Assembly (NCBI GenBank): GCA_028065725.1
Contig: JAPTVL010000187.1
Span: 1 to 53,039 of the forward strand
DNA length: 53,039 bases
DNA from: Betaproteobacteria bacterium
GTDB lineage: Bacteria > Pseudomonadota > Gammaproteobacteria > Burkholderiales > Rhodocyclaceae
Reading direction: 5' to 3'
Shown one piece after another: positions 2,105 to 53,039 of this stretch. A program made the position numbers and the translations under genes. The notes under the pieces were generated by a model. That model worked only from the letters and a program-made list of their open reading frames with translations. It was not told the origin of the DNA and ran no database searches. The number at the start of each line of letters is the position of its first letter. Position 1 is the stretch's first letter.

Positions 2105-3610
<1,506 letters not shown>

Positions 3611-3652
3611 TCATCGCCCCGGATCATTGAGCGAAACCGGCGACCGGGGCGG

Positions 3653-4391: not shown

Positions 4392-4446
4392 CGCAAAGCC
4401 GGGTAGACGGCGTGAAGTAGAATGCCGCATTTTATCGCGCCGCCCC

Positions 4447-4896: not shown

Positions 4897-4914
4897 ACCG
4901 CCAAGCACTTCCCC

Positions 4915-33223: not shown

Positions 33224-33264
33224 CATGCTACTTATTGGCATGTTCATGCTATTATTTGGCTATG
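33224..33264 (+). promoter_or_regulatory. 21-base direct repeats overlapping the HTH-MNT start codon
   Basis: CATGCTAcTTATTGGCATG (33224-33242) and CATGCTATTATTTGGCTATG (33245-33264) are near-identical and spaced 21 bases, about two helical turns. The second copy ends on the ATG at 33262. No Shine-Dalgarno is visible, since the repeat occupies that position. This looks like an operator for autoregulation by the HTH of the gene it precedes. Confidence 0.5.
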
Positions 33265-34246: not shown

Positions 34247-34293
34247 CCAGGCCCAGACTCCGATTGCGCGATTGGTCCGTAGCAATAAAGCCG

Positions 34294-34698: not shown

Positions 34699-34700
34699 AC

Positions 34701-38154: not shown

Positions 38155-38156
38155 CT

Positions 38157-39167
38157 TCAATTCAGCGTCGCCGCCCCCTGACAACAATTGCGCTTGCGAA
38201 ATATCTGATAGGAGAAGTCTTCCCCTTCATAGGGAAACTCCTTGCCCGCCCCCCACAGCATCGTACTGCGCCCCAGCGGCTGACAGCACTTCCCGGCGAT
38301 CTTCGATGTCTGTGGAACCGGATAGAGCATGTGGTACTTGTAGCCCGTCTTGTCCATCACCGGCTGCGGGTAATAGCCGCACAGGCCGTCCTCGCCCGAG
38401 GCGGCCCACATCAACCCCTCACGGTGCATCTTGGCGATGATCCGGTAGACCTCCAGACTGGATGCCTGAACGCCCCCCACATGGGCCTGGACATTGCCGT
38501 TAAGCGGATAGAGATTTCCCTGACATCCGGCACACCAGAAGAAGGTGTTATTGGGAAACCCGGCGGTTGCGGTGACGCAATCGGATGCGCACGCGGCACG
38601 GGCAGGAAGATTGCCAAACAGATAGACATCAGGATTCAGAAGCCGGGTGAGTTCATCGTCCTTCCACAGTGGGTCGAGCTCGGTCAGGTAGGCAACATCA
38701 AAGCCTTGCTGCTCCAGGCAGCTATTGTCCAGAACAGCCTGCAGGTAATAGATGATCGGGTCGACATACCAATGCACCTGATAGAACGAGGACTGGTCCT
38801 GCCCGTCACGCCGATATCGGCTGGCCACCGGGGCATCGAAACCCGGATCGATATCGACACCGCCAAGACTCACCATGCAAAACGGTTTCCGGACCACATC
38901 CACCCGACGTACCGGTTCCCAGAAACTGACCTTCAAGCCGAGCTTGGGGGGATTGCCGCAGAAGCACGCCGGGTTTCCTCCTGGATTGGGGGTGTCTTCC
39001 TGATCCAGCGCTGCCAGCGTGATACCGGCGATTCGCAAGGGGAACATGCAGGACCAGCAGATATCCGTGATCGGGTTGGCAAACTTTCCCGTGCAGGTTG
39101 CCGCGTGGGACGGAAGACTCACTAGCAGAGTCGCCAGCAGCACGAGGATGCTATGGATGAATTTCAT
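38157..39167 (-). CDS. traU: Conjugal transfer protein TraU
   Basis: A 336-residue periplasmic protein of F-type secretion systems. It has a signal peptide (SILVLLATLLVSLPSHAATC). The TraU hallmarks are FANPITDICWSCMFPLRIAG, PACFCGNPPKLGLKVSFWEP, YRRDGQDQSSFYQVHWYVDP and the C-terminal GKCCQPLGRSTMLWGAGKEF. Many paired cysteines suggest disulphide folding. It overlaps the end of traW by 17 bases. Function is DNA transfer and pilus formation. Confidence 0.95.
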   Translation of the reverse strand: MKFIHSILVLLATLLVSLPSHAATCTGKFANPITDICWSCMFPLRIAGITLAALDQEDTPNPGGNPACFCGNPPKLGLKVSFWEPVRRVDVVRKPFCMVSLGGVDIDPGFDAPVASRYRRDGQDQSSFYQVHWYVDPIIYYLQAVLDNSCLEQQGFDVAYLTELDPLWKDDELTRLLNPDVYLFGNLPARAACASDCVTATAGFPNNTFFWCAGCQGNLYPLNGNVQAHVGGVQASSLEVYRIIAKMHREGLMWAASGEDGLCGYYPQPVMDKTGYKYHMLYPVPQTSKIAGKCCQPLGRSTMLWGAGKEFPYEGEDFSYQIFRKRNCCQGAATLN

Positions 39168-39774
39168 CGATGCGCAACCTATTGCCTTCCTGACTGACGA
39201 TCGCCGGAGATTGCTTCAGCAGGAATTTCCGGCTGAGCACCCCGCCCTGGTCGTAAAACACCTCTCGCTTCCATTGGCGCATCAGCTTGAGCGGCTCGCC
39301 CCCGACGAGAATGGGTTTCACCCTTGCCTTTGACTGCTCAATAAATCGCCTGGCGAAAGCGACCTGAGCCTTTTCCCGCTGATCGAAGAACAGCAGGTAT
39401 TGGGTGAGCGGTCCATAGTCGAGCGGATTGACTTTCGTTCCGGCCGGGAACAGCAGCTTGCCTTGCTCATCTACGACATTTCTGTCCAGCGTCCACGTGG
39501 GATCGACGTAGAACGTGCGGACCGTTTCCGTGCTGCTGACTCCGTGGACGGGCCTGGGTTTTTCAACGGCATCGATGACCTTCTGCTTGTAGTTCTCCTG
39601 CACCCTGGCCAGTTCCCCGCTCTTCTCCATCCGGCGAAATCTGTTCTTCATGACTTCGATGAGATCCCGCTCCGCAATCTCGTAGGTCGGGCCGACGACA
39701 CCCAGGTCATTCGCCAGGGCGCAACCGAAGATGAGCAGCAGGCAAGGCAGGGTCGCCAGGAACGCATATCGCAT
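39151..39774 (-). CDS. traW: Conjugal transfer protein TraW
   Basis: A 207-residue exported protein with signal peptide (AFLATLPCLLLIFGCALA). The typical TraW start of the mature part is DLGVVGPTYEIAERDLIEVM. Later RTFYVDPTWTLDRNVVDEQG, AGTKVNPLDYGPLTQYLLFF and LVGGEPLKLMRQWKREVFYD match the family. It works with TrbC and TraU in F-pilus assembly. It follows traI by 68 bases. Confidence 0.92.
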   Translation of the reverse strand: MRYAFLATLPCLLLIFGCALANDLGVVGPTYEIAERDLIEVMKNRFRRMEKSGELARVQENYKQKVIDAVEKPRPVHGVSSTETVRTFYVDPTWTLDRNVVDEQGKLLFPAGTKVNPLDYGPLTQYLLFFDQREKAQVAFARRFIEQSKARVKPILVGGEPLKLMRQWKREVFYDQGGVLSRKFLLKQSPAIVSQEGNRLRIDEIHP

Positions 39775-39842
39775 CCGTCGATGATGGCAGTTACGTTTTC
39801 GGAATCAGCCGCCAAAAGCACACACTCCGTGCGCTTTTCGAA

Positions 39843-42044
39843 TCAAGGCTTGAATCTGATCTTGTCTTCCATCAGTTCCAGCAAACCCGACTTGAGCTCG
39901 TCGAATTTCCAGAGCAGGCGATGATTAACTTTCAGGCCGTGGCGCTTGAACGCTCTCATGGCCTCCATCTTGGTAATCTGACAGAAGCCGTCTTGCTGGG
40001 ACGCACTATCAAGGGATCGAAGGACGGCCAACAGGGCCTCGATCGTCGGAGTACCCTGGGCGGATTTCGTGGTGTCGTTTGCTGGCTGACCCTCTCTGGT
40101 ACTCCCGGAAGGGTTCGCGCCGTTGGTTGATGGCGCAAGCGCCGGGCTCGGCTTCACGGGTTTCTTCGCCCCTGCTTTCGGGATGTCTGGCGCTTTCCGC
40201 GCTGTTACTGACTTTGCAGGCGGCGTAGTCTGCGTATGCGACTGGATTTCTGGCGCCTGGCTGACTTCGTGGCCATCGCTCATTCCCGATTCGAGAAGAA
40301 AAACCTGGCTGATCTCAAGGCCCAGGCGAATGGCGTTATGAGCACCATCCCCGAATTCCTTGGGGATGGTTCGTTTCAACGGACTCATGGGGTCGATTAC
40401 CAACCAGCCCCGGTCGGCCAATTGGTCGAGCACCGTTTTTGGAGTCAGCCCATACCCGGCAAAGGCGTCGGGCCATCGGAGGTAAACATGTCCATCCTGG
40501 TCAGAAATGGCATCAATGCCCCATTTCTTGTCTCTTGCCTTGACGTCCTGTGCCAGGGCCTTGAGGGCTTCACCAATGGCGCCGTCGAGCTTGATCGCTT
40601 CCATCTGCTCGGTACCCGGCCCCGGCTCAGGTCGAGCCTCCTGGTTGCGGGTGATTGCCGATGGGGGTTTCGATGGATTGACAGGCCGTGAAGAATCTGG
40701 AGATGGATCCGAGTCGCGAGAGGTCGTCGCTGATTCGGTGAAACCGGAGGATGACGTGTCACGCTGAATCTTCTCGCCAGCGTGCTGCCCCTCGGCCACA
40801 GTCGACGCCGGCAGACTGCTGGCATCCGTTTCCGCGTTGATGATGCACCCTGCAGCCGACGAAAGAGGTACGGAAGACACCATGGCCTCGTCACGCAATC
40901 GGATGGCCGTCAGCCGGATGTCCGGAATTTTCTCTGCAAGAACCTTTGGGGCGATCTTCCAGTAGCGATCCTCGGATCGGGCATCTATCCGAACCAGTGC
41001 CATTCCACGATCAGTCAGCATGTCCAGAATACCTTCCGGCGTTCGCGGCATTCCCGGCATGCCATCCTCCTTGATCTGGCGAGCCAGCTCTTCACCGGCA
41101 GCGGGCCACACCAGGTAGACATGTCCCTCCATGTTCCACAGTCTTGCCCCAGGTTGATTGACAAGCCACACTCCCTCCCGGACAAACCTGCGCATGATGT
41201 CGATCAGATGGCGTTCTACGGGAACACCCAGGTCGTACCCGGCCATGGCTACCCCGAGCGTCTTGAGATCGCGTTCAACGCTCGTTTGATCGGCCTTGAT
41301 GACCAGGTCGTAGATGAGGTTGGTCGGACCGGGATTGCAGGCCATGGATTCCATCAGCCAGACCACCAGTTCGGTTTCGCCTTCCGCGATCCATGCCAGA
41401 GACTCAACCCCGATGATTCGTTCGGCGATGAGGCTGGACAGCGCGGTGTGCTGGCGCCCTCGCCCCTCACGCCACTCCAGAAAGTAGGCGTTAATGCATT
41501 GCCTTGTTGCCCAGACGTGGAGGTCATCCGTGATCGGATGCCAGGTCGACGTGCGATCCTTGTCTGTCACCGTCAAATCGGTGACAGGTTTGCCCGCGTC
41601 GTGGCACAGGGCAGCGAGGAAGACCGCCAGTTGCCAGCGCGGCTCCATTTCGCGTCGATGTTTTGGTGAAATGGCCGATTGCAAAAGAACACGATCCGCG
41701 GATTGAAGCGCCCACAAGCCCACCTCGATGGCATGTCGCAGCAAGCCCCCTGCCCCTCGATGATGGTGCGACTGCGACGCTGGCAGCAGATGCGAAAACG
41801 AAGCGAAGCGCTTTATCGCCGACAGGTAATGCTTCTGAAAAATCTCAGGGGTGGCGATGGCCGAGTTGGAAATCCTGTCCAGCAGTTCCTTTTGGGTATC
41901 GAGCAGCTTTTCGGGGGAAACGACGGGCAGCCCTTTCATGAAGGGCGGATAACGGGGAATTTCGTCATCGCCCCAGCGGTAGATAGACTCGCCGGCGCGC
42001 AACGGCTCAGACAGAGGTGCTGATTTCCTTTTTCGCCAGAACAT
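39843..42044 (-). CDS. traI: MOBH-family conjugative relaxase TraI
   Basis: A 733-residue protein. The N-terminal TraI_2 domain (about 25-330) has the HHH and HD motifs of MOBH relaxases: QSHHHRGAGGLLRHAIEVGL (His93-95, His104) and ALCHDAGKPVTDL (His148-Asp149). These bind metal for nicking at oriT. A variable Ser/Pro-rich region follows (about 400-480), with two winged-helix-like modules (GHVYLVWPAAGEELARQIKE and GHVYLRWPDAFAGYGLTPKT). The C-terminal TraI_2_C region ends near ENKIRFKP-like EDKIRFKP. It resembles TraI of SXT/R391 and similar integrative elements. In those, traD follows; here traW follows and traD is absent. Confidence 0.92.
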   Translation of the reverse strand: MFWRKRKSAPLSEPLRAGESIYRWGDDEIPRYPPFMKGLPVVSPEKLLDTQKELLDRISNSAIATPEIFQKHYLSAIKRFASFSHLLPASQSHHHRGAGGLLRHAIEVGLWALQSADRVLLQSAISPKHRREMEPRWQLAVFLAALCHDAGKPVTDLTVTDKDRTSTWHPITDDLHVWATRQCINAYFLEWREGRGRQHTALSSLIAERIIGVESLAWIAEGETELVVWLMESMACNPGPTNLIYDLVIKADQTSVERDLKTLGVAMAGYDLGVPVERHLIDIMRRFVREGVWLVNQPGARLWNMEGHVYLVWPAAGEELARQIKEDGMPGMPRTPEGILDMLTDRGMALVRIDARSEDRYWKIAPKVLAEKIPDIRLTAIRLRDEAMVSSVPLSSAAGCIINAETDASSLPASTVAEGQHAGEKIQRDTSSSGFTESATTSRDSDPSPDSSRPVNPSKPPSAITRNQEARPEPGPGTEQMEAIKLDGAIGEALKALAQDVKARDKKWGIDAISDQDGHVYLRWPDAFAGYGLTPKTVLDQLADRGWLVIDPMSPLKRTIPKEFGDGAHNAIRLGLEISQVFLLESGMSDGHEVSQAPEIQSHTQTTPPAKSVTARKAPDIPKAGAKKPVKPSPALAPSTNGANPSGSTREGQPANDTTKSAQGTPTIEALLAVLRSLDSASQQDGFCQITKMEAMRAFKRHGLKVNHRLLWKFDELKSGLLELMEDKIRFKP

Positions 42045-42116
42045 CAGCAGGCATTCAGGCCATTGCTGCGGCTTCGATTGCTACGGAGGCTTCAGCGCAA
42101 GGGCTCGCGGGGAACC

Positions 42117-42614
42117 TCAAAGAATCTGGAAAGCGCGGCCGATGACGTGCTCGTCATCGACCCAACCGACGAGCGCATATCTAGAATCCAGGCTATCCGG
42201 ATGCGGTGCGGCCATGTAGTAGTGCCTCGGGGGAATTGTTCCCGTGGGTCCGGGCATCAGGGGAATACCCGACTTCGCTTTCTGTTTTGCCCGTCCAACG
42301 GATTTTCCGTCAACGAAAAATTCAACGTATCCAGATCCCAGATCGACACTACTCACGTTCGCCCCGGCGATGCCCGTGACTCGCTTGAGGAACCACGCTC
42401 CAGGCGCATAGGGACCCCCGCCCTGGTAACGGAACGCCGCAATATCTCCCAGTTCAGGCTTGACTCCCTTTTGAATGAGATAAACCTTGCCTGACAGGGA
42501 GTCCGAGACGTTGATCGATACGGCGAGGTACCGTCCAGCCAGGACACCTATGACCAGTAGCCAAAGATAACCGGGTGCGTTTTTGGCAAGGTGCCGATAG
42601 ATGAGGTTGAGCAT
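42117..42614 (-). CDS. S26-type signal peptidase of the conjugation system (TraF/TrhF/TrsF type)
   Basis: A 165-residue membrane protein. One N-terminal helix (YLWLLVIGVLAGRYLAV) leads to the serine/lysine peptidase site: Ser39 in INVSDSLSGKVYLI and Lys77 in APGAWFLKRVTGIAG. IPPRHYYMAAPHPDSLDSRY with the SRY box follows. This is the plasmid peptidase family that matures pilin. No pilin gene is present in the window. In SXT-like elements the peptidase stands directly before traW; here traI lies in between. Confidence 0.88.
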   Translation of the reverse strand: MLNLIYRHLAKNAPGYLWLLVIGVLAGRYLAVSINVSDSLSGKVYLIQKGVKPELGDIAAFRYQGGGPYAPGAWFLKRVTGIAGANVSSVDLGSGYVEFFVDGKSVGRAKQKAKSGIPLMPGPTGTIPPRHYYMAAPHPDSLDSRYALVGWVDDEHVIGRAFQIL

Positions 42615-42722
42615 CAGAGGATGCTAGCCATCGCCCCAGCCAATTTCAGCCCGATAAACGCACTTCTCGGCAGCTTTTCAAAAAATGTCGATCACAGCCT
42701 GGCGTCGTTTGCTCCGAGACCC

Positions 42723-43325
42723 TTAGTCGGCGACAACCACGCTGGTTTCGCAAAACGGGCAGTGATCGGTATGTTTGCTGCCGGCGTCGTAGATGAACGC
42801 CGCATTGCACACCTGGCACTGCACGAGCATGACGATTTTTACCCGCACGTCACGAGCGGCAAAGTAGGCGGCGTTGATGTCCAGGGGACCGCAAATCCGC
42901 TGATATTCCCGCCATGTCGTCATCAGACTGGTCGTCGTCAAGTCTGAGGCAAAGATGCGTTGATGGAGTGCGGCAAATGCCGACAGTCGGGCCGCAGAGT
43001 CACGATCCTTGATGAAGGAGAGTACGGTCTCCGGCAATTTCCCGTTCGAGGGTTTTACGCCGTGAACATCTTTCCACCATTGCCGCAATGTTCGCGTCCC
43101 GATGCGTGTCATGCCTCGAATGATGGACAGTCTCAGCCCGGCGCGAATGAGCTCGTGGGCCTGTTGAAGATTTTCTAGTTCAGCTAAGGCGACCACCACC
43201 GAACTCCCTATCGCCTTGGTTCGATAAACGGGAAGACTTGCCGCTTCTGCGGAAATGCCCGGCGCGCCCTGAGCAGTACATCCTGCTTTGATGTGAAAGA
43301 CACGTAGCCGTTTGGCGTAGTCCAT
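42723..43325 (-). CDS. FlhC-like transcriptional activator (SetC type)
   Basis: A 200-residue protein aligning by eye with FlhC: ENLQQAHELIRAGLRLSIIR, KDVHGVKPSNGKLPET, then MTTWREYQRICG and the zinc site CQVCNAAFIYDAGSKHTDHC followed by PFC. SXT/R391 elements use such FlhC/FlhD relatives (SetC/SetD) as master activators of transfer genes. The N-terminal 45 residues are not conserved, so the true start may be downstream, near residue 48. It lies between the FlhD-like gene and the transfer operon it would control. No flagellar genes are near. Confidence 0.85.
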   Translation of the reverse strand: MDYAKRLRVFHIKAGCTAQGAPGISAEAASLPVYRTKAIGSSVVVALAELENLQQAHELIRAGLRLSIIRGMTRIGTRTLRQWWKDVHGVKPSNGKLPETVLSFIKDRDSAARLSAFAALHQRIFASDLTTTSLMTTWREYQRICGPLDINAAYFAARDVRVKIVMLVQCQVCNAAFIYDAGSKHTDHCPFCETSVVVAD

Positions 43326-43427
43326 GGCTGCTGACCGCCAAGGAAGCCATCAAACGCGAAGCTCGCCTCTCGGAACAAAGCGTCATGGGTGTGAGCCTGA
43401 CAAGTCCTCACGCTGACATCCCTGGCC

Positions 43428-43751
43428 TCATGCTTCAGTTGCCTGTCGGGATGTCGGGAAGGAACCTATCCCTCCCCGTGGTCTGGCAGATGCCGCAATA
43501 GAGATCGAGTAAGCCGCTTTCTGTAAGCCCTGGAGCGACAGAAGACGATCCATTTCGGTTTCCGTCAGCCTGATGCTGATGACGCTGATGCCTATGTCTC
43601 GCGCCATCGCATCGATCTCATCCAGAGTCATCTGGGCGATGCGGTCCAGAGCGGTTCGGGATAGCCCCGTCATGATCTCTCCGGACCTGGACTTCGACGC
43701 TTCTCTGGCCATTATGAGAAACTGGCGGTTAATCGAAATGATGTCATTCAT
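43428..43751 (-). CDS. FlhD-like transcriptional activator (SetD type)
   Basis: A 107-residue protein with the FlhD helix pattern MNDIISINRQFLIMAREASK, then RTALDRIAQMTLDEIDAMAR. FlhD partners FlhC as a hetero-oligomer; here the pair would activate the transfer genes to the left. It is divergent to the Xre repressor across a 90-base gap with an operator-like dyad on its -10 region. The C-terminal part is short and rich in Arg/Ser/Gly. Confidence 0.82.
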   Translation of the reverse strand: MNDIISINRQFLIMAREASKSRSGEIMTGLSRTALDRIAQMTLDEIDAMARDIGISVISIRLTETEMDRLLSLQGLQKAAYSISIAASARPRGGIGSFPTSRQATEA

Positions 43752-43789
43752 GTCGCTTTTCCAAAATTGGACTACTATCCACGGTGACT

Positions 43790-43834
43790 AACGATATACA
43801 TCGTTCGGTTTGTTGTCAATTGTAAAAGAAACCG
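43790..43834. promoter_or_regulatory. Divergent promoter/operator between setD-like gene and repressor
   Basis: AACGAT-ATAC-ATCGTT (43790-43805) is a perfect 16-base dyad. CGGTTT (43806-43811) and AAACCG (43829-43834) form a second inverted pair. Reading leftward, TTGACA (43819-43814) is a consensus -35 for the setD-like gene. The -10 region TATATC/TATCGT falls inside the first dyad. A repressor bound there would block the activator promoter. Confidence 0.6.
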
Positions 43835-43841
43835 AAAGAGG

Positions 43842-44282
43842 ATGCTTTTGAATTCGACACCCGAAAACGACATCGCAGATCGGCTTCGCCTCTGGCGGAA
43901 AGACGTACTTGAAATGACACAGGCGAGGTTCGCCGAGGCCACCGGGGTTCATCTCAGCGCGATCCGAAAGTACGAGGGCCGCCATAGCGTGCCCAGCGGT
44001 GAATCATTACTCGCCATTGCGGGTACGGGGATCGACCTGCACTGGCTGCTCACCGGTAAAGGGGATATGCGCGCACCCTCGAATACAGGCGATAACGATG
44101 CCAAGACCGAGGCGGACGCTGAACTCGTTCGTCGTCTGATGGCGATCGAGGGACTTCTGAGTGGCATCCAGGACGACAAGCGATCCGCCGTCCTGGAAGA
44201 GATTTTTTCTCGCGTTCAGGAAGCGAAACGAGTAGCCGACCTGGAGTTGCTGGTTGGCAAGTTGGCGCGGAAACGGGCGTAG
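43842..44282 (+). CDS. Xre/Cro-CI family repressor, short form
   Basis: A 146-residue protein with an N-terminal HTH (DIADRLRLWRKDVLEMTQAR, GVHLSAIRKYEGRHSVPSGE, then GIDLHWLLTGKGDM, the Xre/CI tail motif). A C-terminal helix region follows (VLEEIFSRVQEAKRVADLEL) and could dimerise. By position it corresponds to SetR of SXT/R391 elements, but it lacks the S24 self-cleaving peptidase domain. SOS-type induction through RecA is therefore not expected from this protein alone. AAAGAGG lies just before the ATG. Confidence 0.82.
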   Translation: MLLNSTPENDIADRLRLWRKDVLEMTQARFAEATGVHLSAIRKYEGRHSVPSGESLLAIAGTGIDLHWLLTGKGDMRAPSNTGDNDAKTEADAELVRRLMAIEGLLSGIQDDKRSAVLEEIFSRVQEAKRVADLELLVGKLARKRA

Positions 44283-44406
44283 CTCTTCCGCTTTCATACT
44301 ACGTTGGTACTGGCAATATCCACTTGAAGAATGCATATTCCGAGGAAAGGCGACACCAGACCCGATATCAGATTGCTCCCGGCAGCCAGTTTCCCAGATT
44401 GCTGTG

Positions 44407-44709
44407 ATGAGCATTCGCGTGCTTGAACCCAATGACGCAAGCGACGACCGGAGCGAAAATGCGGCGCAACCTATCCTCAGCTATACCGCCAAGCAGGGGC
44501 AGTACGTCGCCTTCATCTACTATTACTCGAAGATCCACCTGTGTTCGCCGTCGGAAGCAGACATGCAGCGGTATTTCTGCGTGTCGCCGTCAGCGGTCCA
44601 TCAGATGGTCCTGAGTCTGGAGAAGCTGGGATTCATCGAGAGGACACCTGGTCAGGGCCGCTCGGTCAAGCTGCTGGTGCCCCGCGATCAGCTGCCGGAT
44701 TTGATGTGA
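44407..44709 (+). CDS. LexA/MarR-like winged-helix DNA-binding protein
   Basis: A 100-residue protein. Residues about 25-95 form a winged helix: LSYTAKQGQYVAFIYYYSKI, PSEADMQRYFCVSPSAVHQM, VLSLEKLGFIERTPGQGRSV. The pattern is that of the LexA N-terminal DNA-binding domain used as a free-standing regulator. There is no peptidase domain. It starts 124 bases after the Xre repressor on the same strand. The longer open frame upstream (from 44254) overlaps the repressor and is not supported. Role unknown; it may tune the same switch. Confidence 0.72.
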   Translation: MSIRVLEPNDASDDRSENAAQPILSYTAKQGQYVAFIYYYSKIHLCSPSEADMQRYFCVSPSAVHQMVLSLEKLGFIERTPGQGRSVKLLVPRDQLPDLM

Positions 44710-44902
44710 GAGCCTGAGCACTTGCCTCATGCACAACAACGATGAAGCTTGGTTTCACACCGATTGATCTGCATAACTGCGTAATCGAGTTTCCGACAAT
44801 GACGTTGTCAATTGACTTGCGCAACGGTGCTGCCCCCCAGTCATCCCACTGCGTAGTGGTGGTAGATGAGGTAGGTCGGTTCAACTCTAGGCGTGACACG
44901 TG

Positions 44903-45364
44903 ATGGGAATTTCATGCCGAATGTTTTTGCTCGACCAGGATGACGGTCTGTATCGCCTGCCGAGTACAAAGTTCAACCAGATGCTCCGGGATCCGACGAG
45001 TTGCCGCGTAACCCGTTTTGCCGGGGCTCGAGTGCGTATGACTGACATCGCCGTAGAACTGTTGAACCGCCAGCCGATTTGCGTCGTTTGGAACACGTTT
45101 GGTTTTCTCGCCTTTGATGACGCTGGATACTTTGACGCTGGCACATTCGCCCAACATCAACGGGCCCGTGCCGAAGGCGATCTCACCCTACCATCCAAGT
45201 ACCGCCAGTCAGGCAACCTTGAATCTGACTGGTGGATGTCCGGACTAGGAATCTTCTCCAGTCAGTCAGTTACTGAATGTGGCATCCAATACAGATTCGA
45301 GAAAATTTTCAGCCGTCCGCCATTTCCAGCTTGCGCATTTTTTCCCAGAGGTTCTTGCGGCTGA
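44903..45364 (+). CDS. Conserved hypothetical protein, C-terminus probably truncated
   Basis: A 153-residue reading frame starting MGISCRMFLLDQDDGLYRLP and continuing RDPTSCRVTRFAGARVRMTD and ELLNRQPICVVWNTFGFLAF, then FDAGTFAQHQRARAE. I recognise this as a small conserved protein of unknown function common in beta- and gammaproteobacteria. From about residue 100 (NLESDWWMSGLGIFSSQSVT) the sequence no longer resembles it. The last 56 bases overlap the 3' end of the response regulator on the other strand. The original end was probably lost and replaced by chance sequence at the island boundary near 45,200-45,300. Confidence 0.6.
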   Translation: MGISCRMFLLDQDDGLYRLPSTKFNQMLRDPTSCRVTRFAGARVRMTDIAVELLNRQPICVVWNTFGFLAFDDAGYFDAGTFAQHQRARAEGDLTLPSKYRQSGNLESDWWMSGLGIFSSQSVTECGIQYRFEKIFSRPPFPACAFFPRGSCG

Positions 45365-46628
45365 TGCCGAGCAGTGCAGCGGTTTCAGCGATACGACCGC
45401 CGCACTCGTTCAGTGCGCGCCGGATGTAGGCACGCTCGCAATCCTGCAGATGGTCGCTGAGTGGTTGTCGCAATGCATCGAATGCATTTGCAGGTGCGCC
45501 GCCAGCGCCAAATAGACTTTCGATATTCAGGTGCGCACTTAGCGACAGAACACTCGCGCGTTCCAGGCAATGCTGCAGCTCTCGCACATTTCCCGGCCAC
45601 AGATATCGGGTCAGGGCGTGCTCGGCTTCGGCAGTCAATGTGCGACGGGCTTCGCCTTTGCTGGCGCGTCCATCGAGAAAGCGGCCCGCGAGCCAGAGTA
45701 TGTCTTCCTGCCGCTCGCGTAATGGAGGTACGTGCAGATGGATGACGTGGATTCGGTAATAGAGGTCCTCGCGGAAGCTGCCTTGCTCCACCATAGACTT
45801 GAGATCGTGATGCGTAGCGCAGACCAGGCGGATATCCACTTTGCGCTGCGTGGCACCGCCGACGCGAACCACAGCCCGATCCTGTATTGCGCGCAGCAGC
45901 TTGACTTGCATCGAGGGCGGCATTTCGCCGATTTCGTCGAGGAACAATGAGCCTCCATCTGCTTGCTCGAAAACTCCTTGCCGGTCCCGATCGGCGCCGG
46001 TATATGCACCCTTGTCATGGCCAAACAATTCAGTTTCGATCAGGGTCTCCGGAATCGCTCCGCAATTCACTGCAACGAAGGGGGTCTTGCCCTCTGGGTC
46101 GCCGGCACGATGCAGCGCGCGCGCCACTTCTTCCTTGCCGACTCCCGACTCGCCCGAGATGAGAACTGCGCTGCGGCTGGCAGAGATGCGCGGCAGCAGT
46201 GCCTCGATCTGTCGCATGGCAGGCGAAATGCCCAACTGCGCGGCATCATTGACCGCTGGTTGCTGACGTTCGCAAAGCCCGCGGATCTTGGTGATCAGTT
46301 CGCCGACATTGAATGGTTTGGTAACGTAGTCTTGTGCGCCAAGCTTGAGCAAGCGAACCGCTTGGTCGATAGCGCCATAACCGGTAATGAAGATAAATGG
46401 CGGCACTCCCTGCTCGCTGGCGAGTAGGTCGCAAAACAACTTTTCGCCGCTGATGTCGGGTAGATTGATATCGCTGACCACCACACTGTAGCGACGTTGT
46501 CCAAGCCCACGCTGAGCAGACTTGCCATCACGGTACCAGTCGCAAGTGAAGCCTTCAAAGTCAAGCCGCTCGGACAGCGCCTCGCCGATGATGGGATCGT
46601 CCTCGATCAGGCCGATACGGTGCTGCAT
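45309..46628 (-). CDS. arxR: Sigma-54-dependent response regulator, ArxR-like
   Basis: A 439-residue NtrC-type regulator. The receiver domain (1-120) has Asp10-Asp11 and phosphoacceptor Asp53 (VVVSDINLPD). The AAA+ domain has Walker A ISGESGVGKEE, the sigma-54 contact loop GAYTGA and FLDEIGEMPPSMQVKLLRAI. The C-terminal Fis-type HTH is RIAETAALLGISRKNLWEKM. It should activate a -24/-12 promoter after phosphorylation by the kinase encoded upstream, whose gene it overlaps by 22 bases. Place and partners match ArxR of arx clusters (for example in Alkalilimnicola). The name rests on that context, not on sequence search. Confidence 0.85.
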   Translation of the reverse strand: MQHRIGLIEDDPIIGEALSERLDFEGFTCDWYRDGKSAQRGLGQRRYSVVVSDINLPDISGEKLFCDLLASEQGVPPFIFITGYGAIDQAVRLLKLGAQDYVTKPFNVGELITKIRGLCERQQPAVNDAAQLGISPAMRQIEALLPRISASRSAVLISGESGVGKEEVARALHRAGDPEGKTPFVAVNCGAIPETLIETELFGHDKGAYTGADRDRQGVFEQADGGSLFLDEIGEMPPSMQVKLLRAIQDRAVVRVGGATQRKVDIRLVCATHHDLKSMVEQGSFREDLYYRIHVIHLHVPPLRERQEDILWLAGRFLDGRASKGEARRTLTAEAEHALTRYLWPGNVRELQHCLERASVLSLSAHLNIESLFGAGGAPANAFDALRQPLSDHLQDCERAYIRRALNECGGRIAETAALLGISRKNLWEKMRKLEMADG

Positions 46629-48088
46629 GTGGAATCTCCAAGCGGTAGATTAACGACGAACTCGACCTCGCCGTCGATATTCTTGGCAGTAATGCGACCG
46701 TCGAGCTGCGACACAATCTGGTAAGTTACCCAGAGCCCGAGGCCGTGGCCGCCGACGCGCGTCGAAGCAAAAGGCTCGAACAGATGGGCCAGCTGTTCCT
46801 CGCCCAACTGCGCGCCGTCGTTACGTACCACGATAGTCAAACAGGATCCTGAGTCGTCTTTTCTGCCTAGCCACAGGTTGACATGACCGCCTTCAGCCGC
46901 CGCCTGAACGGCATTGAGCAGCAGGTTGATCAGAATCTGGCGCACCAAGCTGGCCGGGGCCGGCAACTCCGTCGGCATGGTTGCCGACCATTCGAGATTG
47001 ATCTGGCGCTTGGCAACCTGGGGCTGGATCAGCGTGTGGATATCTTCGAGGTCATGCGGGTTCAGCGGCCTAGCCTGGACTCTGGTTTGCACCAGCAGAG
47101 CCGCGACGGTATCGCGAATCTGCATAAGGCCGCGGTCGATCAGCTCCAGGTTGCGCAACACGCGCGGATCGAGATCGCGGCGTAGTTTGAGAGTGTCGAC
47201 TACAGTTATCAGTCCAGCCAGCGGATTGTTGATCTCGTGTGCGATGCCAGCCGTCAGCTGGCCGATGGCGGCCAGGCGTTCCGATTTGACCATCTCGCTT
47301 TCCAACGCTGCTTTGTCGCGCAGCGCCAGAACCATGCGGTCGTAGGCTTGGAATAGCTGACCGAGTTCGTCGGCATAAGGGTAGAGATCAGGCGGCAGCG
47401 GTTCAGGAGCCTTTTTGAGCATCTGACCCATGCGCTGCGCAAGATCGACCAGCGGTGTAGCCATGCGGCTGCCCCAGTACCAGTTGATTGGAATAAGCAC
47501 AGCCAGCACCAGCAAGCCCAGGCCAAGCCCCTGCCAGATAGTGTCGATAAACCAAGGATGAAACACCGACTTCGCATAGCGCAGCACAAGGTGTCCCAGC
47601 TTTGCGTCTTTGTCGGTCACTGGTAGCGCTATGTAGAGATAGCTGGATCCGGTGGGTTCCAGCACCAGCGGCCATTTGGGCTCGTTCGGAGCAATGAGGT
47701 GTTCGCCCAAATGCTGCCAGTCGGCGCCGAGCGTTGTCGTTTCACTAAGCATGGGCAGCGTATCTGGATCGCTGGAAACAAATACCTTGTGATCGCGCCC
47801 GAGCACTACCACGGCATCGACCTGGACCGGCGTCTGCGCCGACTCGCCGCGTATCGGCGACCGCACGATCTCGAAGGCGCGCCATACGTCGTCGTGCAGT
47901 AGCGTCGGCGCCACGGTGTTCGCCAGCGTGTGACCTAGATTGTCGGCGCTGATCACTACCGCGCTCTTCATGTCTTCATAGGCGCGTGTCATCAGTGCGG
48001 CACCAACGACGAAGATCGAAAAACTGATCAGAAACGAAGTCCACAAGGGAATCTTGTGGCGGAAAGAGAGGTTGAACAGCCAGCGCAT
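46607..48088 (-). CDS. arxS: Membrane histidine kinase, ArxS-like
   Basis: A 493-residue sensor kinase. Two membrane helices (about 15-35 and 186-205) flank a periplasmic or extracytoplasmic domain of about 150 residues. A HAMP-like segment follows, then the phosphorylated His284 in GIAHEINNPLAGLITVVDTL. The ATP-binding boxes are RQILINLLLNAVQAA, FEPFASTRVGGHGLGLWV. It is of the NtrB/TtrS-like class. With the periplasmic binding protein gene next to it (8 bases upstream), it probably forms a three-part sensor that passes the signal to the sigma-54 regulator. Confidence 0.87.
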   Translation of the reverse strand: MRWLFNLSFRHKIPLWTSFLISFSIFVVGAALMTRAYEDMKSAVVISADNLGHTLANTVAPTLLHDDVWRAFEIVRSPIRGESAQTPVQVDAVVVLGRDHKVFVSSDPDTLPMLSETTTLGADWQHLGEHLIAPNEPKWPLVLEPTGSSYLYIALPVTDKDAKLGHLVLRYAKSVFHPWFIDTIWQGLGLGLLVLAVLIPINWYWGSRMATPLVDLAQRMGQMLKKAPEPLPPDLYPYADELGQLFQAYDRMVLALRDKAALESEMVKSERLAAIGQLTAGIAHEINNPLAGLITVVDTLKLRRDLDPRVLRNLELIDRGLMQIRDTVAALLVQTRVQARPLNPHDLEDIHTLIQPQVAKRQINLEWSATMPTELPAPASLVRQILINLLLNAVQAAAEGGHVNLWLGRKDDSGSCLTIVVRNDGAQLGEEQLAHLFEPFASTRVGGHGLGLWVTYQIVSQLDGRITAKNIDGEVEFVVNLPLGDSTCSTVSA

Positions 48089-48096
48089 CGGAATTC

Positions 48097-48990
48097 TTAC
48101 GCTTCGCCGAAGGCGCGCATCATCCGAGCAACGCCTTCATAGAGTGCAGGGCTTCCTGTAGTGAAGCCATCCAGATGCAGGTGTTCGAGCAGGCGACGTC
48201 CGGCACCGGTCTTGGCCATATCAAGCAGATGGCGCTGCATGAGTTGAAAGTCGGCAGCATTAACCGAGCGATGGCTAACGAAGGGAGGGAAACCGTATTC
48301 CGGTGAGCGCCAGACCACGCGAGTGCGTGCCGCCAGTGCCGGTTCGACATGTGCCAGCGTATCCCAGATGTAGCTGTCCACCGCGCCGCCGCGTGCCAAG
48401 CCGCTCGCCACCGCCTCGACCACCTTGCGGTGCGACCAGGTAAAGAATGTCTTGCGAAAATACGTTGCTGGGTCGCGCCCCAACTGACGGATTTCAAACC
48501 GTGGCGACAAATAACCGGTATTTGAATACGGGTCGGCATAGGCAAACACGCTTCCGGCCAGATCAGCTATCGATCTGACCTCGGCATTGTCCTTGCGCAC
48601 GATCAGGTAGGAGCGGTAATGCGGGCGTCCTTGGTAGAGCGGTACCGCCAGAAGGCGTACCTCCTGCTTTAGATGCAGGTAGGGATAGTCGCAGATCCAA
48701 GCGAATTCCAGTTTCTCAAGCCGCAGTAAGTCCATGGTCTCGCGATAGCTGTCGCGCTGCACGAATTCCACCGGCCGCTGCAGCGAGGCCGCCATGAATT
48801 CGCGCCACTCGGCGAGTAAGCTGTGCTGGTCATGGAGGAAGGCCGGCGTCATTCCGACACGCACTTTGCCGCCCGCAGCTTGTGATTTGCGCGTGAGCCC
48901 GATCAGCCCAACCCCGACGAGACAGCCGCTGACAATCAGCCTGCGACGCCGGTTACGACTTGGTAACGCGATTGCAGTCTCCAGATGCAT
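48097..48990 (-). CDS. arxX: Periplasmic PhnD-like substrate-binding protein, ArxX-like
   Basis: A 297-residue exported protein of the phosphate/phosphonate (PhnD) binding-protein family: KVRVGMTPAFLHDQHSLLAE, ICDYPYLHLKQEVRLLAVPL, RSIADLAGSVFAYADPYSNT, GAVDSYIWDTLAHVEPALAA. The N-terminus NRRRRLIVSGCLVGVGLIGL looks like a TAT or Sec signal. No ABC transporter genes are near, so a sensory role with the kinase is more likely than uptake. An oxyanion such as arsenite or arsenate would be the logical ligand, by analogy with ArxX; this is inference. TGGAG stands 5 bases before the ATG. Confidence 0.83.
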   Translation of the reverse strand: MHLETAIALPSRNRRRRLIVSGCLVGVGLIGLTRKSQAAGGKVRVGMTPAFLHDQHSLLAEWREFMAASLQRPVEFVQRDSYRETMDLLRLEKLEFAWICDYPYLHLKQEVRLLAVPLYQGRPHYRSYLIVRKDNAEVRSIADLAGSVFAYADPYSNTGYLSPRFEIRQLGRDPATYFRKTFFTWSHRKVVEAVASGLARGGAVDSYIWDTLAHVEPALAARTRVVWRSPEYGFPPFVSHRSVNAADFQLMQRHLLDMAKTGAGRRLLEHLHLDGFTTGSPALYEGVARMMRAFGEA

Positions 48991-49003
48991 GATTCTCCAG
49001 CCT

Positions 49004-49019
49004 GTTACGGTGCGGTAAC
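49004..49019. promoter_or_regulatory. Dyad GTTAC-N6-GTAAC, copy 1 (candidate enhancer)
   Basis: GTTAC (49004-49008) and GTAAC (49015-49019) flank GGTGCG, 14 bases from the arxX start codon. Its centre is about 109 bases upstream of the -12 element at 49117-49121, the usual spacing for an NtrC-type enhancer. Confidence 0.5.
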
Positions 49020-49105
49020 TATATTACTCCAATTTATTCCCTTTGAGCCATCGACCGCTGCGACGTCTGATCGCAATCCACTGAAAGCACAGTGTTTAAT
49101 TACAT

Positions 49106-49121
49106 TGGCACGATTCTCGCG
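49106..49121 (+). promoter_or_regulatory. Candidate sigma-54 promoter (-24/-12)
   Basis: TGGCACG-ATTC-TCGCG keeps the full -24 box and the exact GG-N10-GC spacing. The -12 box TCGC differs from TTGC at one base. It points towards arxA, with a start near 49132. The sigma-54 regulator gene of the same cluster makes this site meaningful. Confidence 0.5.
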
Positions 49122-49313
49122 AATGGAAAGACAACCTGATGCGCAGATAACAAACGTGAAACTCCTGTCTCCCAACCAGATTCACCCGCTTAACGCTTAC
49201 AACGCGGCGCAAACCCTGCTGCACGCTGCCCTGCGCCGCAAGCTCCGGCTCCAGTCCATGCGATCTGTCGACGCAGCTATTGCGAGGGAAATCTTGGGGA
49301 CCATCGACTACAG

Positions 49314-49329
49314 GTTACCGAAAGGTAAC
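49314..49329. promoter_or_regulatory. Perfect dyad GTTACC-GAAA-GGTAAC, copy 2
   Basis: A perfect 16-base palindrome with the same half-site and spacing as the dyad at 49004-49019. It lies about 145 bases upstream of the start predicted for the FNR-type promoter. Candidate binding site for the cluster's response regulator. Confidence 0.5.
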
Positions 49330-49411
49330 TTTACGACGCCAGTTGATGCGAGATATTCGGCAGGGCCAGTAGGCCAGCAATCAAGACATTTGTCATGTTA
49401 TGTGCTGAGCA

Positions 49412-49425
49412 TTGATGCAGATCAA
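49412..49425 (+). promoter_or_regulatory. FNR/Anr box upstream of arxA
   Basis: TTGAT-GCAG-ATCAA matches the FNR/Anr consensus without a mismatch. A -10-like TACAGT at 49447-49452 would give a start near 49459-49460, placing the box centre at about -41, as in class II activation. This predicts induction without oxygen, in keeping with an anaerobic enzyme. Confidence 0.7.
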
Positions 49426-49617
49426 GAGACGGATCCGGAAGCTAATTACAGTGCCGCGACCAAGCGAAGTGGTAGCAAAAGACAAGTTGCACAGACCCTG
49501 GCCGGTGCGGCAAACCGCGCGCTCAAATGCGTGGTGGAGTAGGGCAAGACCATGCTGACGCTGACGATCCGGCAACGAGTTTCTCAAATTGATTGAATTT
49601 CGATACAGGAGGTAGTC

Positions 49618-52173
49618 ATGAAATTGACCAGACGTGAATTTATCAGGGCGTCCGCTGCGTCCGCTGCCTGGATGCTCGGTGGCAGTGCAATGGCGGCGGC
49701 CCAGGAGAAGGCCAAGGCCAAGCCCATGCCGTTCAAGAATGCGCTGATCCCGCGTAAGGCCCGGCCCAGTACGCCGGCCAAGGGCGAATGGGTGGCCAGC
49801 ACCTGCCAGGGCTGCACCCAGTGGTGCGCGATCCAGCTGTTCGTCAGCGGAGGCCGCGTCACGCGCGTGCGCGGCAACGAGATTTCGAAGAGCAACCACG
49901 GTTACGTCTGCCCGCGCGGCCATATGATCACGCAGCAGACCTACGATCCGGACCGCGTCAAGGTGCCCATGAAGCGCACCAACCCTCTCAAGGGGCGCGG
50001 CATCGATCCGAAGTTCGTGCCGATCTCCTGGGACGAGGCCATGAACATCGTCGCCGACAAGATGATGGAACTGCGCCAGGCCGGCGAACCGGAAAAGCTG
50101 ATGTACCTGCGCGGCCGTTACGGACCGATTTCGCAGGAACTGCTTTATGGCACGCTGCCGAAGGTTTTCGGCACCGGCAACTACTTCTCGCACAGCGCGA
50201 TCTGCGCCGAGGCCGAGAAGATGGGTCCGCGCCTGACGCAGGGTTTTGCCGGCTACCGCGACTACGACCTGGAGAAGACCAACTGCCTGGTGGTCTGGGG
50301 CTGCGATCCGCTGGCCTCGAATCGTCAAGTACCGAATACCATCCACCGCTTCCATGAAATCGTTGCCCGCGGCACCGTGATTACGGTTGACCCGCGTCTG
50401 TCAAATTCCGCCGCCAAGTCCCACGAATGGCTGCCGGTGCTGCCTGGCACCGACGGCGCGCTGGCTGGTGCGATCGCCCATGTGATCCTAACCGAAGCTA
50501 CCTGGAGCCGCGAATTTGTTGGCGACTTCAAGGATGGCAAGAACCTCTTCATCGCCGGTGCAACAGTTGCCGAAGACGCCTTCGTCGAGAAAGAAACCTC
50601 GGGCCTAGTCAAGTGGTGGAACTTGGAACTGAAGGACCGCACTCCGGCCTTCGCCGCCAAGGAAACCGGCATTCCCGCCGACCAGATCGTCCGCGTCGCC
50701 CGCGCCATGGCCAAGTCAGGACCCAACACCGCCGTCTGGATGGGCCCCGGCGCGGCGATGTGGCCGCGCGGCACCTACGCCGCCATGGCCGTATATGCGC
50801 TGAACGGCCTGCTCGGCTCGATCGACATCGTCGTTCAGGAAGGTGGCAGCGGACCCAAGCTGAACAAGTTCCCCAGCACCGAGAAGTTCATCGACGAAGT
50901 GGCCAAAAAGGGCTACAAGAACCATGACACCAACCGCAGGGGCAGCAAGGAGTTGCCAGCCTTCCAGACCGCGGCCGTCAATGACGTGCCCAACATGTTG
51001 CTGAAGAACCCCGGTGCGACCAAGGTTCTGCTGGCCTCGTGGAACAACTTCAACCACTCCTGCACCGGCGCTGACCGCTGGAACCAGGTGCTGGCCAAAG
51101 TTCCGTTCTTCGCCCACATGGTCACCAACCCGTCAGAAATGACACAGTTTGCCGACATCGTGCTGCCCTCGACCTTCAATTCGTCCGAGGGATGGAATAT
51201 CGTCACCAACGGCAGCAACGGCTATACCTATGCCTCGATCCAGCAAAGCCCGATCAAGCGCGTGTTCGATGTCAAGCAGGAAGAAACCGAAGTCATGTGG
51301 CTGCTGGGGCAGAAGCTGAAGGCCAAGGGCTTCCCCAATCTGGCCGACTACTACGACACGATCAAGGACCCGGAGACAGGAAAGTCGGCGAGTAGCGAGT
51401 TGGAGTTCGCCGAACTCGTCACCAAGTTCATCAGCGCGCCGATCTGGGATGGCAAGGAAGAACAGAAGGGCGATGCGCCGATCAAGGGCTGGGCCGCGTT
51501 CAAGGCCAAGGGCATGTTCCACGGCCCGCGCTACACGCTGAAGAAGGGCTGGGGTGGCAAGTTCAAGAGCGAGACCAAGAAGTTCGAGTTCTACAGCGCG
51601 ACGCTGAAGAAACTACTGGACGCCCACGCCAAGAAGCACGAGACCACAGTCGACGACATCCTCGCCGTCAGCGGTTACACCGCCAAGGGCGAACTGGCCT
51701 TCGTGCCGCACTACGAGGTGCCCAAGCGTCATGGCAGCGTGGAAGACTACCCCTTCACCTTCATCGATTACAAGTCGCGCCTGAACCGCGAAGGCCGCTC
51801 GCAAAACCTGCCTTGGTACCACGAGTTCAAGAAGGTCGACCCGGGTGACGTGTCATGGGGCGACGTGGTCAAGATGAATCCGGCTGATGGCGCCAAGTTG
51901 GGGCTGAAGACCGGCGACATGGTGAAAGTGGCGTCGCAGGCGGGGACCATCACTGTCGAACTCAAGCTCTGGGAAGGTGTGCGTCCCGGCACCGTGGCCA
52001 AGTGCTACGGTCAGGGCCACTGGGCCTACGGTCGTATCGCCACCAAGGACTACGCCAAGGCAGTTCCTTTGGGTGGTAACAACAACGAGATCCTGGTCGA
52101 TGACTATGACCGCCTGAGCGGCGCCACGGCGCGCAACGGTGGCTTCACCGGCGTGCGGATCACCAAGGCCTGA
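49618..52173 (+). CDS. arxA: Molybdopterin oxidoreductase of the ArrA/ArxA clade, probable anaerobic arsenite oxidase ArxA
   Basis: A catalytic subunit of 851 residues. It starts with a TAT signal (LTRREFIRASAASAAWMLGG), so it is exported folded to the periplasm. The [4Fe-4S] ligands are Cys63, 66, 70 and 98, spaced C-x2-C-x3-C-x27-C as in ArrA and ArxA. The probable molybdenum ligand is Cys196 in SHSAICAEAEKMG; MYLRGRYGPISQELLYG precedes it. The C-terminal cofactor-binding domain includes KCYGQGHWAYG. ArrA (arsenate reductase) and ArxA (arsenite oxidase) are close relatives. The arxXSR-type regulators favour ArxA, but a polysulfide-like or antimony substrate remains possible. AGGAGG lies 6 bases before the ATG. 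arxB follows by 23 bases. Confidence 0.8.
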   Translation: MKLTRREFIRASAASAAWMLGGSAMAAAQEKAKAKPMPFKNALIPRKARPSTPAKGEWVASTCQGCTQWCAIQLFVSGGRVTRVRGNEISKSNHGYVCPRGHMITQQTYDPDRVKVPMKRTNPLKGRGIDPKFVPISWDEAMNIVADKMMELRQAGEPEKLMYLRGRYGPISQELLYGTLPKVFGTGNYFSHSAICAEAEKMGPRLTQGFAGYRDYDLEKTNCLVVWGCDPLASNRQVPNTIHRFHEIVARGTVITVDPRLSNSAAKSHEWLPVLPGTDGALAGAIAHVILTEATWSREFVGDFKDGKNLFIAGATVAEDAFVEKETSGLVKWWNLELKDRTPAFAAKETGIPADQIVRVARAMAKSGPNTAVWMGPGAAMWPRGTYAAMAVYALNGLLGSIDIVVQEGGSGPKLNKFPSTEKFIDEVAKKGYKNHDTNRRGSKELPAFQTAAVNDVPNMLLKNPGATKVLLASWNNFNHSCTGADRWNQVLAKVPFFAHMVTNPSEMTQFADIVLPSTFNSSEGWNIVTNGSNGYTYASIQQSPIKRVFDVKQEETEVMWLLGQKLKAKGFPNLADYYDTIKDPETGKSASSELEFAELVTKFISAPIWDGKEEQKGDAPIKGWAAFKAKGMFHGPRYTLKKGWGGKFKSETKKFEFYSATLKKLLDAHAKKHETTVDDILAVSGYTAKGELAFVPHYEVPKRHGSVEDYPFTFIDYKSRLNREGRSQNLPWYHEFKKVDPGDVSWGDVVKMNPADGAKLGLKTGDMVKVASQAGTITVELKLWEGVRPGTVAKCYGQGHWAYGRIATKDYAKAVPLGGNNNEILVDDYDRLSGATARNGGFTGVRITKA

Positions 52174-52196
52174 GCGCCGACGATAAGGAGAATATG

Positions 52197-52997
52197 ATGA
52201 AACTCGGAATGGTTATCGATCTGTCGAGGTGTGTAGGCTGCGGCGCTTGTGCTTTTGCCTGTAAGACCGAAAACAACACGCGCAACCGCGCCAACGGCCA
52301 AAGCCATAACTGGGCCGACTTCCTGATGCACAGCGAGGGCACGTTCCCGAACACCAAGCACTTCGTGATCCCGGTGCTGTGCAACCACTGCGACGAGCCG
52401 CCCTGCATCAAGATCTGCCCGGGCAATCCGGAAAAGGCCGGCAAGGGCAAGCCCTACAAGGCCTTGTTCAAGACGCCGGAAGGCATCACGATGCACAATC
52501 CTGAACTATGCGTCGGTTGCGGTGACTGCCAGACCAAGAACGGCTGCCCCTACAGCCACGAGAAGCTCGACGCGAAGAGCCTCAATGGCGAGACCTACAG
52601 CGTGATCAGCCTGAATGCCGCGGAAGACGAGCCGCAACCCTTCTGGGCGGACAAGTCTTCGGCGATTCCGGGATGCACGTCTTCCGGCGCCGAGGTGTCG
52701 GCCAGGGCCGGCGCCCGGATTCCGGCTTTGAACGCATGGGTGGGTGGCGAAACGCAGGCGATTCGTTCGGATGACGTGGTCGAGAAGTGCACCTTCTGCT
52801 ATCACCGCGTGAGCAACGGTCTGCAGCCGGCCTGCGTTGAGGTCTGCCCGTCCCAGGCGCGCATCTTCGGCGACCAGCAGGATCCGAACAGCCAGATATC
52901 GCAGATCCTGAAGAAGGAAAAGTCCTTCCGCCTGCAGGAAGAAAAAGGGACCAAGCCCAATGTGCACTACGTCGGCAAGTACAGCCCGCGCGCCTGA
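52197..52997 (+). CDS. arxB: Four-cluster ferredoxin subunit, ArxB/ArrB-like
   Basis: A 266-residue iron-sulfur protein of the DmsB/NrfC type. It has four cysteine clusters: CVGCGACAFAC near 11, LCNHCDEPPCIKIC near 62, CVGCGDCQTKNGC near 102, and VEKCTFCYHRVSNGLQPAC near 197. It takes electrons from, or gives them to, the molybdenum subunit. The ATG at 52197 is preferred to 52194 because GGAG then sits 6 bases upstream. A membrane anchor (arxC) and chaperone (arxD) would be expected next but lie beyond the window end, if present. An upstream arxB' as in some arx operons is absent. Confidence 0.87.
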   Translation: MKLGMVIDLSRCVGCGACAFACKTENNTRNRANGQSHNWADFLMHSEGTFPNTKHFVIPVLCNHCDEPPCIKICPGNPEKAGKGKPYKALFKTPEGITMHNPELCVGCGDCQTKNGCPYSHEKLDAKSLNGETYSVISLNAAEDEPQPFWADKSSAIPGCTSSGAEVSARAGARIPALNAWVGGETQAIRSDDVVEKCTFCYHRVSNGLQPACVEVCPSQARIFGDQQDPNSQISQILKKEKSFRLQEEKGTKPNVHYVGKYSPRA

Positions 52998-53030: not shown

Positions 53031-53039
53031 AGATCGGAA
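53031..53039. other. Adapter-like sequence at the contig end
   Basis: The last nine bases, AGATCGGAA, equal the first nine bases of the Illumina TruSeq adapter (which continues GAGC). They directly follow a strong hairpin. This is probably untrimmed adapter and not genomic DNA. Confidence 0.75.

Follow-up and report, generated by a model that had tools for sequence, protein, structure and literature searches.

Bacteria that respire arsenate set arsenic free from solids into water, and the genes that encode and control this respiration are the subject of the present analysis of a contig from a Betaproteobacteria bacterium of the Rhodocyclaceae (assembly GCA_028065725.1, contig JAPTVL010000187.1), all 53,039 nucleotides of which are hereafter referred to as the window. 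Towards its right end lie five genes in two divergent groups, a three-gene sensor module, named here arrR, arrS and arrX (products R, S and X), and an enzyme operon, arrA and arrB (products A and B), with three palindromic operators beside arrA and the backbone of a conjugative element to the left. The enzyme, a respiratory arsenate reductase (ArrA), is already known; its combination with a sensor module and an operator of the kind found with the arsenite oxidases Arx and Aio is new. It is likely that an arr operon has here come under sensor and operator control of the arsenite-oxidiser type through re-pairing of modules, and that it is carried as cargo by the conjugative element.

The features are collected in Table 1. 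Pfam models identify Response_reg, Sigma54_activat and HTH_8 domains in R, HisKA and HATPase_c in S, Phosphonate-bd in X, Molybdop_Fe4S4, Molybdopterin and Molydop_binding in A, and several Fer4 models in B. A begins with a leader of the twin-arginine type (TRREFIRAS) and carries the motif C-x2-C-x3-C-x27-C as Cys63, Cys66, Cys70 and Cys98, while the 17 cysteines of B suffice for four 4Fe-4S clusters. Frames, domains and cysteine positions agree with a preliminary description of this DNA, made from its letters alone, in which a sigma-54 regulator, a membrane histidine kinase and a PhnD-like protein ran leftward and a molybdenum enzyme with a twin-arginine leader and its four-cluster ferredoxin ran rightward; the betaproteobacterial host that it named is borne out by GyrA, which is 84-96% identical to that of the eight genomes searched. 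The gap between X and A spans 627 bases and holds no ferredoxin gene. The window ends 42 bases past B, and the position of arrD falls beyond the contig end, as would any arrC, arxC or arxD. The last nine bases (53031-53039) read AGATCGGAA, which resembles what we take to be the start of an Illumina adapter, and the contig terminus is probably untrimmed adapter.

Table 1. Features of the window, with positions counted from its first base
Feature	Position	Strand	Length	Remarks
R, arrR (named here)	45309..46628	-	439 aa	sigma-54 dependent response regulator, ArxR/AioR type
S, arrS (named here)	46607..48088	-	493 aa	membrane sensor histidine kinase
X, arrX (named here)	48097..48990	-	297 aa	PhnD-like, AioX/ArxX/ArrX subfamily
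A, arrA	49618..52173	+	851 aa	respiratory arsenate reductase molybdopterin subunit
B, arrB	52194..52997	+	267 aa	four-cluster ferredoxin subunit
Operator 1	48952..48967			GTTACGACTTGGTAAC; exact GTTAC-N6-GTAAC, within 5' end of X
Operator 2	49004..49019			GTTACGGTGCGGTAAC; half-sites invariant in 9/9 aligned intergenic regions
Sigma-54 promoter-like box	49106..49121	+		TGGCACGATTCTCGCG; position conserved in 9-row alignment; faces arrA
Operator 3	49314..49329			GTTACCGAAAGGTAAC; half-sites invariant in 9/9 aligned intergenic regions
F-type conjugative element backbone	33224..45174			common to G009 (93.2%), G943 (87.9%) and G969 (94.6%)
TraN	34701..36467	-		Pfam F_T4SS_TraN
TrbC	37411..38187	-		Pfam TrbC_Ftype
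TraU	38157..39167	-		Pfam TraU
TraW-like protein	39151..39774	-		Pfam TraW_N, just below gathering score
MobH-type relaxase	39843..42044	-		Pfam TraI_2; plasmid hits annotated MobH family relaxase
Signal peptidase S26	42117..42614	-		Pfam Peptidase_S26
ssrA (tmRNA)	32653..33015	+		by element's left end; ARAGORN; Rfam RF00023

The enzyme is ArrA rather than ArxA. In a maximum-likelihood tree of 33 rows, a branch with 100/100 support separates the ArrA sequences, among them A, the solved ArrA of PDB 6cz7 and that of Sulfuritalea hydrogenivorans, from 11 ArxA, and A stands on the ArrA side near locus L001 and S. hydrogenivorans; the outgroup rows sit on long branches and support for the root is weak (60/41), the ArrA/ArxA split being independent of the root. 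PDB 6cz7, which we take to be from Shewanella, is also the best solved relative of A, with 840 bits over 796 residues, the second best being a thiosulfate reductase with 147 bits. The nearest protein named for an isolate, among the matches listed, is that of S. hydrogenivorans (85% identical), and ArxA of the Sulfuricella plasmid, likewise betaproteobacterial, is about 31% identical to A. An R/KGRY motif is reported to distinguish ArrA from ArxA (PMC11283718). RGRY stands at residues 165-168 of A, as it does in PDB 6cz7, and is found in all 20 ArrA and none of the 11 ArxA rows of the tree. It occurs in 118 of the 120 proteins nearest to A, the two without it being fragments of 773 and 784 residues; among the 120 hits of a search with ArxA it is absent and GR[GA]WG is present in 115, the exceptions being three full-length proteins and two fragments. 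The NCBIfam model of ArrA, NF041714, gives A 943.5 bits against a naming cut-off of 1600, and since the S. hydrogenivorans ArrA with 967.3 bits is also below it, the cut-off is no test for this subfamily; two ArxA score 431 and 435. Model NF041715 gives arrB 218.9 bits (cut-off 450) and the S. hydrogenivorans copy 222.6.

The gene layout can be compared with two known systems. In S. hydrogenivorans sk43H (L152), for which arsenate respiration is reported to have been demonstrated and arrAB to be present (PMC6397845), the order and direction are the same (R, S and X leftward, A and B rightward), with identities of 87% (R), 85% (S), 82% (X), 85% (A) and 94% (B); three operators lie there at nearly the same spacing as in the window, and the gap between X and arrA is 412 bases as against 627. 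In the arx cluster of the Sulfuricella denitrificans skB26 plasmid pSCD (L081), XSR likewise diverges from the enzyme operon and one exact operator is present, at 6733, but the ArxA carries GRGWG and the order is arxXSR, arxB2, arxA, arxB, NrfD-type arxC, TorD/arxD and moaA. Among 80 related ArrA loci, many of them short, which limits these counts, arrD-like genes occur in 65 (arrB stands directly 3' of arrA in the window), while similarity to the Sulfuricella genes detects an arxB2-like ferredoxin in five and an arxC-like NrfD in one, L029, where an arx cluster is present as well; arxB2 is apparently specific to arx (PMC6549141). The locus could also be regarded as an operon for an arsenite oxidase of the arx type from which arxB' has been lost, and its arx-type XSR, divergent as in Sulfuricella, speaks for this and against an arr operon. 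Such a reading is nevertheless extremely improbable, given the place of the enzyme in the ArrA clade (100/100), RGRY instead of GRGWG, an ArrA profile score of 943.5 bits compared with 431 and 435 for two ArxA, and the frequencies of arxC-like NrfD (1/80, many of the loci being short) and arrD-like genes (65/80).

The preliminary description had thus placed the enzyme in the right lineage, that of ArrA and ArxA, as the tree confirms, but on the wrong side of it: its identification of the pair as arxAB of arsenite oxidation is contradicted by the ArrA clade, by RGRY in place of GRGWG and by the arr layout of S. hydrogenivorans. It had correctly seen that no arxB' precedes the enzyme; the variant arx layout concluded from this does not hold, as an arr layout is naturally without arxB', the enzyme being ArrA and the layout that of the S. 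hydrogenivorans arr. It had also considered the direction of the reaction undecided by sequence, whereas clade, motif and layout appear largely to settle it towards arsenate reduction. As regards electron transfer, the frames that follow arrD in loci L003, L011 and L031 include either cytochrome c or a multihaem protein, which in L003 has a b561-like part, and relatives of the L003 protein occur in 12 of the 80 loci; such proteins are a candidate electron path that would take the place of a NrfD subunit.

The sensor module is of the arx/aio kind and not of the kind represented by ArrX of Chrysiogenes arsenatis (PDB 6x6b). X, S and R are 59%, 51% and 59% identical, respectively, to ArxX, arxS and arxR of Sulfuricella. 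The aioXSR-aioBA system of Rhizobium NT-26 (L135) has likewise three-part sensing with a sigma-54 activator, but its enzyme is unrelated at this level, its sensor proteins are more distant (X 37%, S 29% and R 46% identical) and it has no exact GTTAC-N6-GTAAC. The best solved relatives of X are AioX (195 bits) and ArrX (133 bits). For the X tree of 60 rows, 18 of the 77 module entries were dropped, namely near copies, fragments and the five distant X, and the PDB ArrX was added; 54 rows were retained for R. A clade with 100/100 support in the X tree unites 26 of the 29 ArrA-linked X, that of the window included, with 7 of the 12 ArxA-linked X, and leaves the Chrysiogenes ArrX outside. The mixed clade retains a support of 100/99.9 in a reduced tree, in which a grouping of ArrA-linked X alone is rejected (p value of the approximately unbiased test, p-AU, 0.028). 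The arx-type sensor recognised in the preliminary description is therefore upheld, X being grouped with the arx-linked X of an arsenic system.

The ligand of X can be approached through its predicted pocket. Tyr88, Cys106, Tyr131, Ser161, Ser163, His192 and Asp210 are reported as conserved in the pocket of this sensor subfamily (PMC5908839); six of the seven are identical in X, and Ser163 is replaced by Thr, a conservative change found likewise in the Sulfuricella arx X. The AioX loop GLTPVFLSND, described as shorter in ArrX (PMC5908839), is retained in X, where it reads GMTPAFLHDQ, and identical letters at loop and pocket are found in ArxA-linked X of the same clade. Loop and clade favour an X that would sense arsenite, as AioX and ArxX do, over one of the ArrX kind. 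The fold that X shares with the Chrysiogenes ArrX favours neither ligand, and the AioX-type loop is lacking from an alignment with ArrX that starts after the loop position. The same arr operon might instead have an X that senses arsenate as the Chrysiogenes ArrX does, its likeness to ArxX reflecting ancestry and not ligand. Three points weigh on this side and against arsenite sensing: pocket residues alone are reported to be insufficient for specificity, AioX, ArxX and ArrX each bound the substrate of their own enzyme (both PMC5908839), and X is linked here to ArrA. Set against the retained loop, which is shorter in ArrX, and its identity in loop and pocket letters with ArxA-linked X, they leave arsenate sensing a serious, if somewhat improbable, possibility.

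Alignment of the X-A gap of nine loci first exposed the palindromes and the sigma-54-like box. By its score alone the box is weak, an equally good one being found in 83 of 500 random pieces of 450 bases. The pattern GTTAC-N6-GTAAC occurs three times in the window, every copy beside arrA. The fetched loci, apart from L083-L116, L140, L141 and L157, which repeat others or are element sequence, contain 118 exact copies in 1,909,703 bases, compared with at most 9 for any of 59 other half-site orderings and 0 or 1 for other spacers of 0-12. With the window included, 103 of 121 sites lie less than 2 kb from an X; 15 of the other 18 stand before ArrA with X farther off or off the contig, and the rest are in L124 and L147. 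Where an X lies within 8 kb, 29 of 33 loci have an operator upstream of ArrA, whereas 1 of the 23 loci lacking such an X has one (Fisher p 1.4e-10, a value that is too small because the loci share ancestry, the co-occurrence still being plain); in this count three of the 80 loci were skipped, as their match starts after residue 15, and 21 with short flanks were kept apart, three of them with an operator. Beside other modules the operator occurs at 8 of 13 that are ArxA-linked, 4 of 8 that are AioA-linked and 5 of 6 linked to a fourth type of molybdoenzyme, about 26% identical to ArrA.

The operator is a variant of a known one. It fits the published AioR consensus GTTN10AAC, whose footprint is given as GTTCGGATTTCCGAAC (PMC5335332), and paired palindromes are reported in each of the 12 aio operons that have aioXSR but in no others (PMC3834237). 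The open-licence literature searched yielded neither a use of the operator by arr nor AioR sites with GTTAC. Scans of eight genomes found 0-9 sites per genome with the pattern and 1-6 with a reversed control, so that single sites away from arr are no evidence of a regulon; one genome, G010, has XSR beside ArrA and zero operator sites, which counts against control of arr through this operator.

Some arrangements around the operators may be recorded here. An open frame on the forward strand (49122-49542) lies in the leader of arrA, immediately beyond the sigma-54-like box, and a frame at a like place holds an RRL stretch in 10 of 12 other intergenic regions; it may encode a leader peptide, be a small gene, or be no more than conserved DNA. 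In L003 (4122-9868) the operator trio is present in two copies, one beside X and the other some 5 kb off beside arrA, and the frames between are chemoreceptor-like and GGDEF/EAL-like by labels read from their translations; by analogy with Agrobacterium, where AioR has been linked to mcp (PMC5335332), this arrangement may tie arsenic sensing to chemotaxis. In L147 (15809-18663) two exact operators precede a second molybdoenzyme (26% identical to ArrA) downstream of an arx cluster.

The nearest kin of the regulator half differ from those of the enzyme half. A tree of arrAB from 13 loci unites the window with L001 (support 100/99), a pairing rejected by the XSR tree of the same 13 loci (p-AU 2e-6); arrAB in turn rejects the window with L002 (p 7e-4), the XSR of which is the most similar to that of the window. 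Three circumstances limit the case for separate histories, namely that the XSR tree leaves the exact place of the window open, that the tested pairs were picked after the identities had been seen, and that two outgroup rows split in the enzyme tree, L015 standing beside L011.

To the left of arrR, the window holds conjugation genes of one system, the right part of the element lying outside it. Relaxase matches at E <= 1e-100 were found in 19 of 297 genomes (family of G001), three of them at 91-92% identity; the elements of these three, G009, G943 and G969, share the backbone, and all cease to match the window at 45174 or 45175. Matching to relatives of arr begins at 45308-45319, about 130 bases separating the last shared element base from the end of arrR. 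At this place G009 has profile matches for the defence systems Lamassu (LmuA, LmuB) and Gabija (GajA, GajB), followed by TraG, TraH and TraF, and its own arr operon is on a different contig. The arr operon therefore appears to lie in a variable cargo slot of an F-type (MobH) element beside ssrA, and the arr unit is probably mobile. The window is 96% identical in GyrA to G009 and 91% to G001, and 80% and 93%, respectively, in ArrA, a disagreement in kinship that is expected if arr came from outside. In S. hydrogenivorans the nearest relaxase match is about 1.5 Mb from arr and 57% identical.

Several results limit the case for a mobile arr. No att repeat was found, the 3' end of ssrA recurring neither in the 98 kb of G943 nor in the 94 kb of G009 searched, and no integrase was seen among the frames scanned, the right end of the element being outside the window. 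The link itself might be an assembly artefact, a false join of unrelated pieces at 45175: the shared backbone ends where an assembler meets a branch, adapter-like letters stand at the contig end, the join is seen on this contig only, these transfer genes being absent from the flanks of the 80 ArrA loci, and in the slot of the three other elements there is no match to arr. A false join is unlikely all the same, since the three other elements vary naturally at this very junction and the shared stretch runs out about 130 bases short of the end of arrR. As regards the left end, the block shared with G969 starts only at window position 33224, and G001 (L093, about 7049, corresponding to window 34297) shares 1.3 kb after ssrA, without conjugation genes, followed by tRNA-Thr.

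The explanation that we favour, an arr operon under a sensor and operator of the arsenite-oxidiser type, may be set out as follows. In a Sulfuritalea-like member of the Rhodocyclales, with arrXSR divergent from arrAB, the ArrAB product would act in anaerobic respiration, reducing arsenate outside the cytoplasm to arsenite. X would bind an arsenic oxyanion in the periplasm, most likely arsenite, S would pass phosphate to R, and R would bind the GTTAC-N6-GTAAC operators and fire the putative sigma-54 promoter before arrAB. Recombination, eased by a shared operator, would have brought sensor module and enzyme into a new pairing, and the operon would occupy the variable cargo slot of the F-type (MobH) element next to ssrA. 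A sensor of the arsenite type might also be explained by an enzyme that is bidirectional in the cell and serves, according to need, as arsenate reductase or as arsenite oxidase, and the existence of a contig with both arr and arx (L029) can be cited, like the sensor, for this and against a dedicated arsenate reductase; among the features of A examined, however, none points to oxidation, arxC-like NrfD occurs in only 1 of the 80 ArrA loci, and a bidirectional enzyme is very improbable.

A wider proposal can be offered only tentatively, and we think it rather less probable than even: that in Betaproteobacteria XSR and its operator serve Aio, Arx, Arr and the fourth molybdoenzyme, re-paired by recombination, and that the window represents an arsenite-induced Arr, in positive feedback, travelling as cargo in the phage-defence slot of the element. 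If an arsenite-type sensor does control arr, its induction in the field may depend on whether arsenite is already there. If arr can ride a conjugative element, the trait may spread sideways, and the suggestion that arrA in Sulfuritalea is possibly vertically transmitted (PMC11283718) would have to be qualified. The shared operator can serve as a simple search pattern for arsenic operons controlled in this way, and warns against calling an operon arx from its regulators alone.

Other loci in the collection carry related arrangements. The fourth molybdoenzyme type stands beside an arx-type XSR in L136 (Azoarcus sp. KH32C plasmid, 3403-6042), where NrfD and ferredoxin genes adjoin it, and also in L119, L127, L128, L129 and L035. 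The arr and arx clusters of L029 lie on the one contig in opposite directions. Two metagenome-assembled genomes titled Bordetella parapertussis and Chitinophaga pinensis (L060 and L064) encode ArrA 69-71% identical to that of the window, and their titles are probably wrong.

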